Source: Leptolyngbya sp. BC1307
Lineage (GTDB): Bacteria; Cyanobacteriota; Cyanobacteriia; Phormidesmidales; Phormidesmidaceae
Assembly: GCF_002286735.1 (NCBI RefSeq)
Contig: NZ_NRTA01000036.1
Span: 1-45,812 of the forward strand
Direction: 5' to 3'
Length of the DNA: 45,812 bases
Position 1 is the first letter of the stretch. Every line of letters starts with the position of its first letter. Made by a program: the position numbers and the translations under genes. Of this stretch, positions 31,862 to 44,528 are shown one piece after another. The notes below the pieces were generated by a model. It saw nothing but the letters and a program-made list of their open reading frames with translations. It was not told where the DNA came from and made no database searches.

Positions 31862-32902
31862 CTATCTAAAAGCTGGCACCGTTCCGCCTACCGTCTGAGC
31901 GATCGCCTCAACCGCTTGATCAACCTGCCCCCGCGTCACCATCAAGTTAGTCACCGCCCGAATCCGCTGGGGGCCAGTCGCCAAGACAGCCACGCCCTGC
32001 TGAGCCAGCTCTTTGACTACCTCTGCTGCTGGCTGGCCGGGCACCTCGAAGTTAACAATGTTGGTTTCCACAGTCGCCGGGTCAATGACCACACCCTTCA
32101 TGCCTTGCAGCCCACGGGCCAGCCGCTGAGCGTTTTCGTGGTCTTCTGCCAGGCGATCGCGCTGATACTGCAAAGCATAGAGCGCCCCTGCCGCAATCAT
32201 TCCAGCCTGACGCATGCCGCCGCCAAACATCTTGCGAAACCGCCGCGCTTTCACCATCTGCTCTGCCGACCCCACCAGCGCCGATCCCACTGGCGCACCT
32301 AGCCCCTTAGAGAAGCAAACGCTCAGCGTATCAAAGGGCTCAGCGTATACCGATTCGCTGATGCCCGTCGCGATACAGGCATTCCAAAACCGCGCCCCGT
32401 CCATATGCAGCTGCAGATCGTGCTGCTGACAGACCTGGGCAATTTCACGGATAGTCTCCAGTGGAAAGATCCGTCCGCCGCTGCGGTTGTGGGTATTTTC
32501 TACACAGACTAACCGGGCTCGGGGGAAGTGCGGATCTACAGGGCGCAGGTGTCGCTCAACCTCCGCTGCCGTAAACGCGCCGCCGTCTCCTGGCAATAGC
32601 CGACAGCTCACCCCCGACAGCGCAGCGGGGCCGCCCCCTTCGTAGTAGTAAATATGGGCTTCTGACTCTAACAAGATCTCGTCGCCGGGCTGAGTGTGCG
32701 ATCGCAGCGCCACCTGATTAGTCATCGTTCCCGAAGGCATATATACTGCCGCTTCCTTCCCCAGTAGCTCAGCAACGTAGGCTTCTAGTGCATTCACAGT
32801 CGGATCATCGCCGAGCACGTCATCGCCGACGGGGGCTTGCACCATTGCCTGACGCATCCCGTCAGTTGGCTGCGTCACTGTGTCACTGCGGAGGTCAATC
32901 AT
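31862..32902 (-). CDS. ltaE: Low-specificity L-threonine aldolase
   Basis: The 346-residue PLP enzyme splits threonine or allo-threonine into glycine and acetaldehyde. It begins MIDLRSDTVTQPTDGMR, has GDDVLGDDPTVNALE, VENTHNRSGGR, HMDGARFWNA (Asp and Arg for PLP), and the PLP-binding Lys in CFSKGLGAPVGS near residue 200. The start is the ATG at 32902; no alternative is needed. It is a single gene on the minus strand, 209 bases upstream of bicA. Confidence 0.93.
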   Translation of the reverse strand: MIDLRSDTVTQPTDGMRQAMVQAPVGDDVLGDDPTVNALEAYVAELLGKEAAVYMPSGTMTNQVALRSHTQPGDEILLESEAHIYYYEGGGPAALSGVSCRLLPGDGGAFTAAEVERHLRPVDPHFPRARLVCVENTHNRSGGRIFPLETIREIAQVCQQHDLQLHMDGARFWNACIATGISESVYAEPFDTLSVCFSKGLGAPVGSALVGSAEQMVKARRFRKMFGGGMRQAGMIAAGALYALQYQRDRLAEDHENAQRLARGLQGMKGVVIDPATVETNIVNFEVPGQPAAEVVKELAQQGVAVLATGPQRIRAVTNLMVTRGQVDQAVEAIAQTVGGTVPAFR

Positions 32903-33858: not shown

Positions 33859-35337
33859 ATGACCTCCCCCGTCGTCTACCCTCAAATTCAGCGGACTCTG
33901 GCCGCCATCGTGGTAACCGATGCTGTTGGCTTTAGTAAGCGTATGTCGCAGGATGAAGACCGGGCGCTAGCGGTGATCAACCGCGACTTACAGCTCATTT
34001 CAGAGCTGTGCGAATTTTTTGAGGGGCAGGTGCTTAAGACCATTGGCGACGGCGTGCTGATGTACTTTGTCAGTGCCGTGCAGGCCGCAGCCTGCGCCAT
34101 CGAGATGCAAAAAACCTTTGCTGGCTTTGCCAAAACCGGTCAGGCGAGCGATCACTTTACCCATCGTGTGGGTGTTCATCTGGGCGATATTTTTTTCAAC
34201 CAGCAAGACATGATGGGCACGGGGGTCAATATCGCTGCCCGGCTGGAGTCGGAAGCTAAGCCCGGTGCTATCTGCATGTCTCAGGTGGTCTATGAGGTTG
34301 TCAAATCGCGCTTAGAGCTAGACGTTAGCTACATTGGTGAACTGTCGCTCAAAAATATTGAAGAGGCTGTAGCTGCCTATCATGTATGGCCGGTGGGTAT
34401 GCGCCCCGAAAATAGCAAAGAAGAGACGACAGAAGCGATCGCCCCACTGACACTGACTCCCCTCTATACAGCGCTTAGAGCACTTTCAGAGCATCCGAAC
34501 AGCCGCCGTATCAAAAAGCTGCTCTACGGGGCGCACTATTCTGCTTGGGAAAACGATGCTGTGGTGTTAGAGGGAATACCGCTCAAAGTGCTGCTGGAGT
34601 CTCTGACTGACCGCAGTACCAGCCTGAATGAATGCCGCCACCACCTCTATCAGATTGTCGGCACGCTCAACCGCCAAGAGGCTTACACGCAAGTAGCTGA
34701 GGTCGTTCTCAAGCATCTGCGTACCTTTTATGCCAATCCGACCCAGGTAGTAGATGTAGAAAAAGCGCTTTCTAAAACCTCAGAGGCTCTGGCAGGGGAG
34801 CCATCTGGCCCGATTGAAACCTTTCAAGAAGACTCTGGCGCTCTGAGTCAGCCGATTGCGACCCTTTGTCAAGATATCGCCGACCGACTAGAGCTAACAT
34901 CCGAAAAGATTCGCCTGAAGAAGATGCTCTACTGTCTGTGCTACGACAGCTGGGAAAACGACAGCGATCGCATTGCTCAAATTCACACCAGTAGCCTGAT
35001 CAAAGAGCTGCGTCGGCAGGTGGCCACCCTGCAAGACTTACAGAGCCGCCTGCGCATCATTTTGCTCCGGCTCAACCGCAAGGCAAAATACGCGCCAGTA
35101 GCCGATACGCTTTTCCAAGAGTGCCAGACGCTCTATGCCGAAAGCGACGGCCCCCTTTCGCTGCCCAGCGCCATTGACCTAGAAGACGCCGCCGCTGACA
35201 ATACTCAAATCAATCTGCGTAAAAAGCCGACTCAGCGCTGGGTCTCTCAATCGGCTATCCCGCCCGTTATTCCGCCATCTGTCTTAATCCGTTCCACCGC
35301 ACTGAATCAAAAGCGGATAGACAGACTCGCTGAATAG
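33859..35337 (+). CDS. Class III adenylate/guanylate cyclase with duplicated C-terminal domain
   Basis: The 492-residue protein starts directly with the cyclase domain (about 10-180). Metal-binding Asp are D21 (VVTDAVGFSKRM) and D64 (KTIGDGV). K60 is in the position of the adenine-selecting Lys. N124 and R128 (GTGVNIAARLE) are the transition-state residues, and Thr 121 stands where many adenylyl cyclases have Asp. The rest contains two copies of an unknown region of about 75 residues: 217-292 (RIKKLLYGAHYSAWENDAVV) and 352-427 (RLKKMLYCLCYDSWENDSDR). Each ends LNR-x4-Y-x2-VA-x12-LY/FYA. It is cytoplasmic and probably makes cAMP. No promoter or operon partner was recognised. Confidence 0.88.
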   Translation: MTSPVVYPQIQRTLAAIVVTDAVGFSKRMSQDEDRALAVINRDLQLISELCEFFEGQVLKTIGDGVLMYFVSAVQAAACAIEMQKTFAGFAKTGQASDHFTHRVGVHLGDIFFNQQDMMGTGVNIAARLESEAKPGAICMSQVVYEVVKSRLELDVSYIGELSLKNIEEAVAAYHVWPVGMRPENSKEETTEAIAPLTLTPLYTALRALSEHPNSRRIKKLLYGAHYSAWENDAVVLEGIPLKVLLESLTDRSTSLNECRHHLYQIVGTLNRQEAYTQVAEVVLKHLRTFYANPTQVVDVEKALSKTSEALAGEPSGPIETFQEDSGALSQPIATLCQDIADRLELTSEKIRLKKMLYCLCYDSWENDSDRIAQIHTSSLIKELRRQVATLQDLQSRLRIILLRLNRKAKYAPVADTLFQECQTLYAESDGPLSLPSAIDLEDAAADNTQINLRKKPTQRWVSQSAIPPVIPPSVLIRSTALNQKRIDRLAE

Positions 35338-35367: not shown

Positions 35368-35454
35368 AGAACAGCTTTATAGCGCCAAATCCGATAAGAT
35401 AGCTTACTGGATTGGCGATAGCGGAGGTTGGCTGCAGTGCAGCTAAATTAACGG

Positions 35455-36435
35455 ATGGGCGTTTCGACCGTTTTTATTGATGGTGAAGCCGGAACAACTG
35501 GGCTGCAGATTTATCAGCGCCTAGCTGAGCGTGACGATATTAAAGTTATCAGTATCGACCCAGATAAGCGTAAAGACACCACTGAGCGCACCAAACTGCT
35601 CAACGCTGCTGATGTCTCTATTCTCTGCTTGCCCGACGACGCTGCCCTAGAGGCCGTTAGCTGGGTGACCAACCCCAAAACCAAAATATTGGATGCCAGC
35701 ACCGCCCATCGTACTAATAAAAACTGGGCCTATGGATTTCCGGAACTAACCTCAGGTCAGCGATCGCAGATCGCGAAATCTACTCGGGTCAGCAATCCGG
35801 GCTGCTACCCGACAGGCTTTTTAGCCGTTGTTTCACCGCTGGTCAGCACCGGTACCTTACCTGCCGATTTGCCAATGACCGTCAACGCAATTTCTGGCTA
35901 CTCAGGTGGCGGTAAAAAGCTAATCGCCCAGTACGAAGCCTCTCACCAAGAAAATCAGCAGCAGGGACGCGAATCGGTTGCGCCCTACAGCCCTTACGGG
36001 CTCCAGTTTGGTCATAAGCACGTCAAAGAGATGCAAACATATGCAGGGCTAAGCCACGCGCCGCTGTTTGTGCCCGCAGTCGGTGATTTTGCCCAGGGGA
36101 TGGTGGTGCAGGTGCCGCTGCCGCTGTGGACGCTAGATCAACCCCCCACAGGTCAGCAGCTACACGATGTATTAAGCGAGCACTACGCAGACGAGCCCTT
36201 TGTCCGAGTGATGCCTTACCCAGCAGTCAATGAGCTGCGCGATCGCACCTTTTTAGAAGCGAAAAGCGCAAATCATACCAACGAGGTGCAGCTATTTGTC
36301 TTTGCTAACGACGTTACCCAAGAAGCGCTGCTAGTCGCCCGGCTAGACAATTTGGGCAAAGGAGCCTCAGGAGCCGCTGTGCAAAATCTCAACATCATGC
36401 TGTCCCTCCCTGAGAGCGCAGGGCTAACCCAGTAG
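35455..36435 (+). CDS. argC: N-acetyl-gamma-glutamyl-phosphate reductase, type 2
   Basis: ArgC reduces N-acetylglutamyl phosphate with NADPH in arginine synthesis. The 326-residue protein has IDGEAGTTGLQIYQRL (nucleotide binding), catalytic Cys 117 in SNPGCYPTGF, and ISGYSGGGKKLI. GEAGTTGL and the short length are marks of the type-2 enzyme, common in proteobacteria; cyanobacteria usually have type 1 (GASGYGG, about 350 residues). This could be a second or a transferred enzyme, possibly with another substrate. The ATG at 35455 follows ACGG; no better start exists. After its TAG the same frame continues as a tautomerase remnant. Confidence 0.88.
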   Translation: MGVSTVFIDGEAGTTGLQIYQRLAERDDIKVISIDPDKRKDTTERTKLLNAADVSILCLPDDAALEAVSWVTNPKTKILDASTAHRTNKNWAYGFPELTSGQRSQIAKSTRVSNPGCYPTGFLAVVSPLVSTGTLPADLPMTVNAISGYSGGGKKLIAQYEASHQENQQQGRESVAPYSPYGLQFGHKHVKEMQTYAGLSHAPLFVPAVGDFAQGMVVQVPLPLWTLDQPPTGQQLHDVLSEHYADEPFVRVMPYPAVNELRDRTFLEAKSANHTNEVQLFVFANDVTQEALLVARLDNLGKGASGAAVQNLNIMLSLPESAGLTQ

Positions 36436-36555
36436 CGACAGCAGTTGGGCATTGCTGTAGAAGATATTGAGATTGCTATGTTTGAGCTGCCCAGGCACAA
36501 CTGGGGCATTCGAGGTGTCCCAGGTGACGAGCTGGTGCTGGACTATACCGTGTAA
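36436..36555 (+). pseudogene. C-terminal remnant of a tautomerase-family gene
   Basis: Directly after the argC stop, in the same frame, 39 codons read RQQLGIAVEDIEIAMFELPR and then HNWGIRGVPGDELVLDYTV before TAA. The segment F-E-x-P-R-H-N-W-G-I-R-G resembles the end of tautomerase/4-oxalocrotonate-tautomerase-like proteins. There is no room for the N-terminal half with its catalytic Pro, so this is a deletion remnant joined to argC. It could be a short readthrough extension of ArgC. Confidence 0.6.
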
Positions 36556-36561
36556 GTACAA

Positions 36562-36596
36562 CAAAATAGCCGCGGCTCATAAGGAGCCGCGGCTAT
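36562..36596 (-). terminator. Strong hairpin terminator behind the ferritin-like operon
   Basis: A perfect 13-base-pair stem, ATAGCCGCGGCTC (36566-36578) with GAGCCGCGGCTAT (36584-36596), has a five-base loop. On the minus strand it is followed by TTTTG, so it should end the minus-strand transcript of the two ferritin-like genes. It may also work for argC on the plus strand, though no T run follows there. Confidence 0.8.
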
Positions 36597-36690
36597 CCAA
36601 TAATTAGACAAACATAGATAAACAACTGTCAGCGTTTGGCTAAGTCGAGAGGTCTAGCCTGTCTATGACTACGATCTCTCACCACAGTTT

Positions 36691-37599
36691 TTACCACAGC
36701 GCCCGAGGGGGAGCTTCAGGCTGTGTGGGAGGCGTTGCTGGCTGTCTGGGCTGAGGCGTTGCTGGCTGTCTGGGCTGAGGCGTTGCTGGCTGCTCAACAT
36801 TCGTCAGAATAGGGCCAACTAGCGCTAGCACTTCATCTTGGGTGGCATAGCCGTCAAACGCATCAGAGCTAAAGGGAATGGGCGTACCAGTCCGGTTTTC
36901 GTTATAGATAACTTCGCTGCTGCTGGCGTTTTCCGATATCCAGGGTCTGACATCAGCGCCGAGTAGCGACTGCCGCAGATACCTCACACCCGCTGCGTGG
37001 CGAGCTTCGACGCTGTGGATGGCCAAGGCTGCCGCTAATACAGTTTTACCAGCGTCACCCGCTGCCAACAGGTTTTGCACCTGTCCTTTGTAAGCAGCGA
37101 CACCTAAATCTTCAACATACTGCCCGGCTAGCAAAAAATCTGCGGGGTTGGCAAATGGGTCGCGCCCTAAAATTGCCGAATAGTTTGGGTTAGACGGAAT
37201 CGTAACGATGTTAGGGTCGCCGCCCAAACTAGGGAGAACAGCCGAGAGATCGGCGACATGGGTGGCCTCATCTTGGCCGTAGGAGACGATAATTTCTTTG
37301 GCAAACTGCGGGACGCTAGCTAGACCGCCGCTCTGAGCTGCAATCGCCGCCCGACGATAAAAGTCAGCTTCCAGTTTTTCTAAAGTCAAGGCGTATTCAG
37401 TCACCTGCCGGGGCGTCAAAACCGCTTGAGCTTGGGCTGGAGAAGCGGGGCTCAGAAACAGCAGCAGCAGTGCCAACGGCAAAACTATAGCCGCACTAAA
37501 GCGAGTAAAAGAGAGTTTGAGCGAATAAGATAAAAACGATAAAACTTGGGTCGCCTGCTGCGCGATTAGGGTTAAGTAGGGTTTCATGGGGTTCTTCAT
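36691..37599 (-). CDS. Exported ferritin-like domain protein with Pro-rich tail
   Basis: The protein of about 302 residues starts with a long signal region (hydrophobic core AAIVLPLALLLLFLSPAS, cleavage likely at AQA-QA). The ferritin_2-like four-helix domain follows: TEYALTLEKLEADFYRRAA, GQDEATHVADL, GQYVEDLGVAAYKGQ, IHSVEARHAAGVRYL. Glu and His residues in those helices could bind metals. The C-terminus is a (PATPQPRQ)n tail from a 24-base tandem repeat. ATG 37599 is four bases after the stop of the preceding Tat-exported paralogue, so the two form an operon. The role is unknown; iron or stress-related functions are plausible. ATG 37587 is an alternative start. Confidence 0.82.
   Translation of the reverse strand: MKNPMKPYLTLIAQQATQVLSFLSYSLKLSFTRFSAAIVLPLALLLLFLSPASPAQAQAVLTPRQVTEYALTLEKLEADFYRRAAIAAQSGGLASVPQFAKEIIVSYGQDEATHVADLSAVLPSLGGDPNIVTIPSNPNYSAILGRDPFANPADFLLAGQYVEDLGVAAYKGQVQNLLAAGDAGKTVLAAALAIHSVEARHAAGVRYLRQSLLGADVRPWISENASSSEVIYNENRTGTPIPFSSDAFDGYATQDEVLALVGPILTNVEQPATPQPRQPATPQPRQPATPPTQPEAPPRALW
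36731..36792. repeat. 24-base tandem repeat in the 3' end of the ferritin-like gene
   Basis: GGCGTTGCTGGCTGTCTGGG followed by CTGA (24 bases) occurs at 36731-36754 and 36755-36778, with a partial third copy to 36792. It encodes the repeated PATPQPRQ unit. Confidence 0.95.
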
Positions 37600-37603
37600 G
37601 ATT

Positions 37604-38326
37604 TTAAGCAACGAGCGCACCGTTAATGGGATTGTTAATCAGGTTAAGTGAGCCGACGATGGACACGACCTGGTTGGGGCTGTATAGCTCGTCGTAAGCC
37701 CTACCTTTAAATGGATTGAGGCTGGCAACTAGGTCTTCGTCGGGGACTAGACGATCGCTATCTGGCTGAGTTGTAGGTCTGCCTAGCAAGGCCCGTACGC
37801 CGCCTGCATGGCGCGCTTCAACTGAGACAATTGAGCCTGCAGCCAAAAGGTAAGTGGGGTTAGTTAGAAATAGGCCAGCGCCATTGTAGGCATGGACGCC
37901 GACATCTTCTAGAGCAACTGCTGTATTGAGAATAGTGTCGCGATCGCTCAAAATAGCCGCTAAACCGTCTGGATTAAAGCTAATATCTTCGGTCTCAAAC
38001 AGCACCTGATCGCCTAAGACACCTCGTAAGAAGGTGACGTGCGCCGCTTCTTGAGCGCCTAAGACTCTGATGTACTCTAGCTCTGTGCTATCGGTAACCA
38101 TGCCCGAATCGGCTGCTGCCGCATAGAAAGCTGCTTCAAGCTCCTCTAGCAGCAGGGCAAAATTGAGAATGCCAACGTCGTCAGCCTCAAAAGTAAGGGT
38201 GGCGATACCATTCGACTGCGCGCTTACCACTTTGGGCAAAGTCGAAATCATCAGGCCGCCAAAACCACATAGGCCCCACTTGAGCAGGCTACGGCGCGAG
38301 GCGGATAGTGTTTTTATCTGATTCAC
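37604..38326 (-). CDS. Tat-exported ferritin-like domain protein
   Basis: The 240-residue protein has a twin-arginine signal, SRRSLLKWG, followed by a hydrophobic segment (LCGFGGLMISTL) and VSA-Q cleavage near 37. Tat export suggests folding or metal loading in the cytoplasm before passage to the periplasm or lumen. The ferritin_2-like domain follows with LNFALLLEELEAAFYAAAA, GAQEAAHVTFL, TAVALEDVGVHAYNG and SVEARHAGGVRAL. The helix order and Glu/His spacing match the downstream gene, so they are paralogues. The start is GTG at 38326, with GGGAGA eight bases upstream. It is the first gene of the operon and ends four bases before the next start. Confidence 0.85.
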   Translation of the reverse strand: MNQIKTLSASRRSLLKWGLCGFGGLMISTLPKVVSAQSNGIATLTFEADDVGILNFALLLEELEAAFYAAAADSGMVTDSTELEYIRVLGAQEAAHVTFLRGVLGDQVLFETEDISFNPDGLAAILSDRDTILNTAVALEDVGVHAYNGAGLFLTNPTYLLAAGSIVSVEARHAGGVRALLGRPTTQPDSDRLVPDEDLVASLNPFKGRAYDELYSPNQVVSIVGSLNLINNPINGALVA

Positions 38327-42719: not shown

Positions 42720-44411
42720 TTAGGCATTCTTTAGCGCGGCTACTTTAGCCCAGGTGCCGGGGCCGACTTCTTTTTCAAATTCTTGAATAATCCAGTCGCT
42801 TGATTTGCCAAGTCGACGGGCGCTCTTGTTTAAGTAGTCGGCGATCGCTAGCTGCTCTTCTCCCGTGGGCCGAGCGCCAAATAGTGAGCCAAAACACCAG
42901 CGCTGATCGGGCGGGCGATCGCACTGTTCGTAAAAGGCTCTATCGGCCCAGGTCGGCGCATAGCCTCGCTTAAAGGCCCGCCGCCGATGGCTATGGTACA
43001 GCTCAATGAGCGTCGGCACATCGCGAATCTGCCTGGCCTGAGCATTGGAGTAAATCTCCACCATGTCTTCTGTATTGACGGGCCTTTCGCTTACCCATTG
43101 ATGGGCACAGTCAGGGCATTTGACAATGAAAGCCAGTACGATCCGACCGCAGGCGGGACAGGGCTTGGTCGGGGCGACACCGCCACCGCCAGCAGATTTG
43201 TTTTGAGTCGGCAGGGTGTAGTCTTCTACATCTTCAGGAAAGCCCAGCCGCTGCAAGTTACCCGCCTGATCGAGAATGATGCCGCATGCTTTACCCGTCT
43301 GCGGAGAGATCCGCATGACTCGCCCCAACTGCTGAAAATGCATAGCGCTGGACTGGGTAGGCCGCAACATCAGCCCGACTTCGACGCTGGGTTCATCAAA
43401 GCCAATGCTAATGACATTGCAGGAGGTGAGTACTGTCAGCTCTCCGGTCTTGAGGGCGTGGTATAGCTTTTTACGATCTTTAATTGAGGTATTGCCATCT
43501 ACCGTGCCGGCAGTGACGCCCGCTTGACGGAAAGCTTCGGCGACGTGATTGGCGTGCTCTATATCGACGCAAAAGGCGATGGTGCGCTTGCCTTTGCCGA
43601 TGCGCTGCCACTCTTCGACAATTTTTTCGATCAGTTCGGTGCGATCGCAAGCATTCTTTAAATCTCTCTCATCGTAGTCACCCTTAGCCGTGCGGACTTC
43701 TTCTAAGTTGGCCATGCTGTCTCTGGGCATGCTGTAATATTTCATCCGAGAGAGATAGCCCATCTCTTGCAAATCGCTGGGCACTGGCGAAGAGACCAGC
43801 GTGTCTAGATAGTCACCGAGCTGTTCTTTCCCTAATCGCAGCGGCGTTGCTGTCATCACTAGATGCACTGCGTCTGGGTGAGTTTTGAGCATGACCTTTT
43901 TGCCCACCTGACTAAAAAGCGTGATGTGCCCCTCATCGTAAAACACCACGTCGGCGGGCCACTTGTGCCACCAGCGGCGCTTGGCCATCGTCTGAATGCT
44001 GGCAATTTGAATGGGCGCAGCGCGGTTTTCTTCCCAACCTGCTTTGATAAAGCCGCACTGCAAGCCGAATGCCTTCATCTTTTCGTAGGTTTGGCCGACC
44101 AGCACATCTAAATGCACCAAAAACATCAGTCGCTTACCGGCATCTTCAGCATGTGCGCAGATCTGACCACTGATGATGGTTTTGCCAGCCCCGGTGCCTG
44201 CAATAATCGCTACCCGTTTGTGCCCTTCATTGAGCGCGCGGTAAAGGTCATTGACGAGCTGTACCTGGTAGGGCCTGAGCCTGGGGGGCTGTGGCCGAGG
44301 GGAGGGAACCGACTGGGCTGCTTCACTGGAAGGATCGGTATTTGAGGAATCGGTGGCTACTGCGTCGGTGGCAGCGCTGTGGGCGGAGTTGGGCAGGGGA
44401 CGGTCAGACAT
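42720..44411 (-). CDS. SF2 DEAD/DEAH-type helicase with zinc ribbon
   Basis: The 563-residue protein has a low-complexity N-terminus (1-40), then helicase motifs: Q-like RLRPYQVQLVNDL, Walker A AGTGAGKT (71-78), DEGH (159-162), TATPLR, and in the second RecA domain TSCNVISIGFDEPSVEVGLM and QQLGRVMR. Behind it is a Cys-x2-Cys...Cys-x2-Cys ribbon (CPACGR ... CPDCAH). A C-terminal extension of about 100 residues follows, rich in Trp and Arg. It is related to type III restriction/phage-type helicases and probably unwinds DNA or RNA; no methylase or endonuclease gene is adjacent. It stands alone between the kinase and a galactose-oxidase pseudogene. Confidence 0.88.
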   Translation of the reverse strand: MSDRPLPNSAHSAATDAVATDSSNTDPSSEAAQSVPSPRPQPPRLRPYQVQLVNDLYRALNEGHKRVAIIAGTGAGKTIISGQICAHAEDAGKRLMFLVHLDVLVGQTYEKMKAFGLQCGFIKAGWEENRAAPIQIASIQTMAKRRWWHKWPADVVFYDEGHITLFSQVGKKVMLKTHPDAVHLVMTATPLRLGKEQLGDYLDTLVSSPVPSDLQEMGYLSRMKYYSMPRDSMANLEEVRTAKGDYDERDLKNACDRTELIEKIVEEWQRIGKGKRTIAFCVDIEHANHVAEAFRQAGVTAGTVDGNTSIKDRKKLYHALKTGELTVLTSCNVISIGFDEPSVEVGLMLRPTQSSAMHFQQLGRVMRISPQTGKACGIILDQAGNLQRLGFPEDVEDYTLPTQNKSAGGGGVAPTKPCPACGRIVLAFIVKCPDCAHQWVSERPVNTEDMVEIYSNAQARQIRDVPTLIELYHSHRRRAFKRGYAPTWADRAFYEQCDRPPDQRWCFGSLFGARPTGEEQLAIADYLNKSARRLGKSSDWIIQEFEKEVGPGTWAKVAALKNA

Positions 44412-44528
44412 AGGGCGATCGCAGGTGCCGTGGCCTTAGAGTATAAGTGTATTACAGCGAGAGCCGCTCAGGGGGCGGGCCGTTGACGCAAATACGGTAC
44501 CAGGCTAGAAGCGTGCTGACTTCCTTAA

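Follow-up and report, generated by a model that had tools for sequence, protein, structure and literature searches.

A tautomerase relict behind a genus-wide type-2 argC gene in the cyanobacterium Leptolyngbya sp. BC1307

Here, we analysed a contig of Leptolyngbya sp. BC1307 (NZ_NRTA01000036.1; 45,812 nucleotides, the whole stretch being called the window), in which a type-2 argC gene and 39 codons of a tautomerase C-terminus lie in one frame and are separated by a single stop codon, at the positions given by an earlier sequence-only reading. Comparison with related genomes makes it very probable that the genus has an argC-tautomerase pair, that the window species lost the bulk of the tautomerase by an internal deletion, and that its ArgC came from an old transfer and displaced the type-1 enzyme. 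The feature is nothing out of the ordinary: the remnant of a deleted gene, lying next to an enzyme that was transferred long ago and that the genus has in common. Deletions that leave pseudogene remnants, and transferred homologues that take the place of native genes, are everyday events in bacteria, and the present case is the same in kind. In the partial texts returned by a literature search, we found nothing on cyanobacterial ArgC transfer, ArgC type 2, alr4568 or Pro1 tautomerases, nor on this particular case.

The argC frame opens with an ATG at 35455 and runs for 326 codons to a TAG at 36433-36435 (Table 1). Its translation scored 477.8 bits against the type-2 profile TIGR01851 (argC_other; cut-off 229.85), with residues 5-318 aligned to profile positions 3-310 of 310, which is nearly the whole length; against the type-1 profile TIGR01850 it reached 161.5 bits and stayed below the cut-off (233.6). 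The strings NPGCYPT and GHKH are both present in the translation, and we take them to be the catalytic active-site motifs of ArgC, with the cysteine and the histidine, respectively. The protein is 74-80% identical to ArgC of five other genomes of the genus and 52-58% identical to the type-2 enzymes of Caulobacter. The TIGR01851 cut-off was passed by one of 14 control genomes, taken to be Caulobacter; in contrast to that system, the host of the window is a cyanobacterium and its ArgC belongs to a separate cyanobacterial clade.

The genome itself is a 4.9 Mb draft in 222 contigs, estimated to be 99.99% complete. The semialdehyde dehydrogenase domain had three matches in it: this argC, an aspartate-semialdehyde dehydrogenase on C27, and a frame on C64 that stayed under the domain cut-off and presumably resembles an epimerase. 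The two genome searches proposed by the sequence-only reading both came out negative. A type-1 argC was not found in this genome, the best TIGR01850 match being the same argC (158 bits, under the cut-off); for the tautomerase, a search confined to this Tautomerase_2-type family returned no second copy and matched only the 39-codon tail (E limits of 1 for the profile and 0.01 for the protein). The genome also has argB (294.8 bits). Judged from its sequence, the window ArgC appears to be an ordinary enzyme and is the sole one found for its step in its own genome.

Behind the ArgC TAG, 39 sense codons continue in the same frame up to a TAA at 36553-36555. In the genome search, 36433-36552 matched residues 88-127 of the intact tautomerase of Phormidesmis priestleyi Ana (G001) with 73% identity over 40 positions and an E value of 9.2e-15, the ArgC TAG being counted in this alignment and standing against residue 88. 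With such an E value in the comparison to a congener's intact gene, a chance likeness is excluded, and the alignment identifies the tail as the end of a 129-codon tautomerase gene, in agreement with what had been claimed for it. The tail scored 24 bits against Tautomerase_2 (PF14552, profile positions 58-82 of 82) and remained under the gathering cut-off of 28 bits because so little of the gene is left; the intact G001 gene passes with 89.2 bits. Compared with the PF14552 family and with alr4568 (see below), the copy in the window keeps only about residues 90-127 and is no working enzyme. The relict would have no product and would be located either in the 3' untranslated region of the argC transcript or downstream of it.

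Table 1. Features of the window around the argC-tautomerase junction.
Feature	Position	Strand	Basis
argC, type 2 (N-acetyl-gamma-glutamyl-phosphate reductase), 326 aa	35455-36435	+	TIGR01851 match
3' remnant of a tautomerase gene (39 codons plus TAA), corresponding to residues 89-127 in the whole 129-aa protein	36436-36555	+	Protein alignment; Tautomerase_2 profile under cut-off
Junction left by the deletion: stop codon of ArgC, a single CGA codon, and CAG CAG as codons 90 and 91 of the tautomerase	36433-36444	+	Alignment by codon to the four whole tautomerase genes
Protein with adenylate/guanylate cyclase domain, next gene upstream of argC	33859-35337	+	PF00211
Beta_elim_lyase enzyme	31862-32902	-	PF01212, 349 bits
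Hairpin, 15 pairs, T-rich tail on the minus strand	36564-36598	-	Terminator scan; 13-nt perfect inverted repeat

The comparison set consisted of six other genomes of the genus (G001-G006), including Cf. Phormidesmis sp. LEGE 11477 (G003), Phormidesmis sp. RL_2_1 (G004) and P. priestleyi ULC027bin1 (G005). A same-strand tautomerase gene lies 95-162 nt past the argC stop in five of the six, that is, in all five with a readable locus. Whole 129-codon genes start 98, 149, 133 and 95 nt after this stop in G001, G002, G003 and G004, respectively, while the G005 gene starts 162 nt past it and is cut by the contig end. Neither argC nor a tautomerase was found in G006. The match to the upstream cyclase in that genome stops 93 bases short of a contig end, towards which its 3' side points; for this reason a true absence of argC was not counted as evidence, and the missing genes are readily understood as an assembly gap. 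Outside the genus, no tautomerase was found within 700 nt downstream of argC in G008, G009, G011, G021, G032 and G037, and the motif NWGI[RKH]G is absent from the available argC flanks of the loci L116-L123, L163 and L172.

With regard to the intact protein, the closest solved relative of the G001 tautomerase is the Nostoc protein alr4568 (PDB 4lkb, 9c4l), which it matches over residues 1-128 (E 1.2e-44) and to whose C-terminal part the tail corresponds. Another close structure, 7tvk, is named malonate semialdehyde decarboxylase. In the tautomerase superfamily, an amino-terminal proline is the catalytic residue and defines the catalysis. The genus tautomerases L047, L049, L050 and L051 begin with MVQVKITG, and the MVQ start is found in four whole and one cut congener proteins, none having an amino-terminal proline; the window copy has no amino terminus.

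The pair appears to stand in a partly conserved neighbourhood in the genus. The upstream order, helicase (as we take the first gene to be), Beta_elim_lyase enzyme (presumably threonine-aldolase-like), small protein, cyclase and argC, is largely common to the genus: it is complete in G003 and G004, and G005 has all of it that its short contig can hold. The cyclase adjoins argC in G001, G003, G004 and G005, and the Beta_elim_lyase enzyme is 79-81% identical in the stretches of G002-G005; the latter gene was not found in the G001 stretch, nor were the small protein and the cyclase at the G002 locus. Downstream of the tautomerase, gene order varies among the congeners. The window gene at 42723-44435, which we assume to be helicase-like, is 85.5% identical to the gene facing the tautomerase in G004, and 6.2 kb of other genes separate it from the relict side. 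Together with the upstream order, this gene shows that genes of the genus flank the junction on the window contig to the left and to the right; the part that follows the tautomerase is, on these comparisons, variable.

Several further elements were observed near the pair. Two adjacent ferritin-like (PF13668) genes lie behind the relict on the minus strand (36691-38326), with no match in the stretches of 11 relatives that were compared (6 to 13 kb long). The hairpin between the relict and these facing genes is possibly their terminator; the scan count is weak, with one found against 1.4 expected in shuffles. Upstream, a perfect dyad GCTGC-N3-GCAGC at 35431-35443 starts 24 nt ahead of the argC ATG. 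It is found 24-27 nt before the ATG in five of the six genus genomes with a readable argC (the window included, G005 being the exception), its 3-base middle differing each time, whereas the 150 nt ahead of argC in G008, G009 and G011 did not show it. The window has two such dyads versus 0.24 expected, and 2 of 100 shuffles had as many. A role as operator or hairpin for argC in the genus is possible.

Since the congeners keep a tautomerase after the same argC, the window species would have lost the spacer and about 89 codons of the gene. The ArgC stop lies two codons past a conserved Gly-Leu in the window and one to three codons past it in all five congeners, and the CAG CAG at 36439-36444 corresponds to the pair of residues 90-91 of the intact genes. 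The exact breakpoint cannot be placed to the base, as the intact genes are only 71-82% identical to the tail. An internal deletion of roughly 360-430 nt would have taken out the spacer together with about 89 codons out of 129, so that the final 39 codons now adjoin the ArgC stop; the underlying range of 362-429 nt assumes that it began immediately after this stop and reached codon 89, and varies with the congener used as the model. It is possible that more than one clean deletion was involved, considering that the downstream order differs and that G001 and G002 each miss one or two upstream neighbours. That argC and the tail share one frame would happen by chance in about one case in three and calls for no special cause. 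The sequence-only reading had suggested that the two parts were brought together by deletion after transfer; the comparison with the congeners bears out the deletion and gives no support for a tie to transfer, as the pair was already in the genus, in five of the six other genomes.

The deletion was seen in one species and in a single genome record, and the assembly is a draft in 222 contigs, both of which would fit a real genome that has an intact tautomerase and a contig from which a few hundred bases are missing. However, the contig has congener genes on both sides of the junction, the genome yielded no other piece of this tautomerase family, and no direct repeat of at least 10 nt crosses the junction (searched in 36300-36700). 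We consider such an artefact very unlikely.

Even less can be said for a recoding event, in which the TAG would be read through at some rate, a possibility also raised from the sequence, and ArgC would gain a selected 39-residue tautomerase-like tail. The frame is indeed open for 39 codons past the ArgC stop, and the tail has no excess of amino-acid change against its intact relatives: over 37 codons, pN between the tail and four intact genes is 0.083-0.142, compared with 0.035-0.163 among the intact genes themselves. On the other hand, ArgC ends at the same position in five congeners and is followed there by a spacer of 95-162 nt, without any extension. Because the tautomerase is out of the argC frame in G001-G004 (four of five) and behind several in-frame stops in G005, there was no ancestral ArgC extension. 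Moreover, the tail amounts to less than a third of the tautomerase and occurs in one species only. A recoded tail is thus extremely improbable on this evidence, and we give just as little credence to the idea that low-level readthrough persists because argC and the tautomerase of the genus work as partners in the handling of semialdehydes.

Under the preferred reading of a gene relict, the retained frame and the low amino-acid change are not required of a neutral sequence, and the deletion may be young. Synonymous differences between the tail and the intact genes are many (pS 0.49-0.78), and with 37 codons only, pN/pS revealed neither clear decay nor special conservation in the tail. A recent deletion would fit its low pN best.

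The claim that a type-2 ArgC is unusual for a cyanobacterium was borne out by a sample of 386 genomes of the phylum, many of them from outside the class of the window, among which 16 (the window included) passed the type-2 cut-off. The other 15 belong to families f28 (13 genomes) and f15 (two), and a type-1 argC over the cut-off was present as well in every one of them; in the ArgC tree these carriers of both types group with Nostoc, Scytonema and Myxacorys. A different pattern was seen in 58 relatives, again counting the window: a whole type-2 argC was found in 12, namely the window genome, five congeners, G008, G009, G011, G021, G032 and G037 (the last from another family), and none of these 12 passed the type-1 cut-off. 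The type-1 cut-off was passed by 41 of the 58, G029 among them, and neither type was over its cut-off in five (G006, G015, G022, G028 and G033). In a family search of 63 genomes, the 16 that passed the type-2 cut-off comprised six of seven in the own genus, seven of eight in genus g3, the only genome each of g4 and g6, and G029 with one piece of its broken gene. In that last genome, which is 73% complete and also has a whole type-1 argC, the type-2 argC on C53 consists of two overlapping pieces in different frames (L017 and L046). Here the outcome may have been the opposite, the transferred gene being the one that decays; otherwise, the broken frames stem from a sequencing error or from contamination.

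The ArgC tree was built from 81 rows: 57 of the best 80 of 210 loci, the window, 20 cyanobacterial rows and three type-1 outgroup rows. All 35 cyanobacterial rows of type 2 formed one clade (support 100/99), located inside a group (99/99) that otherwise comprised 24 rows, every one from Pseudomonadota: most were Caulobacterales or other alphaproteobacteria, and two were Burkholderiaceae. Outside the clade, two Pleomorphomonas rows came nearest, with weak support (86/64), and the window ArgC grouped with Phormidesmis and Vasconcelosia (99/95). Type-2 ArgC is rare in the phylum but, judged from the tree, old. Most likely, a single old transfer from alphaproteobacteria brought it into cyanobacteria, where it would have been inherited and would have replaced the native type-1 enzyme in the group of the window; the donor lineage is read from the 57 tree rows taken from the best 80 of 210 loci in one scan, and we infer the direction, the order of events and the number of type-1 losses as well. 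Although type-2 ArgC is rare in the phylum, a recent arrival of argC together with a partial tautomerase in the window species has practically no chance of being correct, as the pair is found in the same surroundings in the congeners and the tree position and the presence across the genus rule out a recent argC transfer. According to the phylogeny and the tallies in the genus, the close relatives have type-2 ArgC as their regular enzyme, acquired by descent, which speaks against the transfer that the sequence-only reading had in mind.

The tail itself represents ordinary gene decay, and the wider pattern of argC types is of some interest. Cyanobacterial lineages have type 1 only, both types, or type 2 only, the last state being that of the group of the window and G037. 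The three states match the succession predicted for an essential step at which an incoming enzyme is at first kept alongside the native one and later supplants it. As all three are present among cyanobacteria, such an enzyme swap is testable in living relatives.
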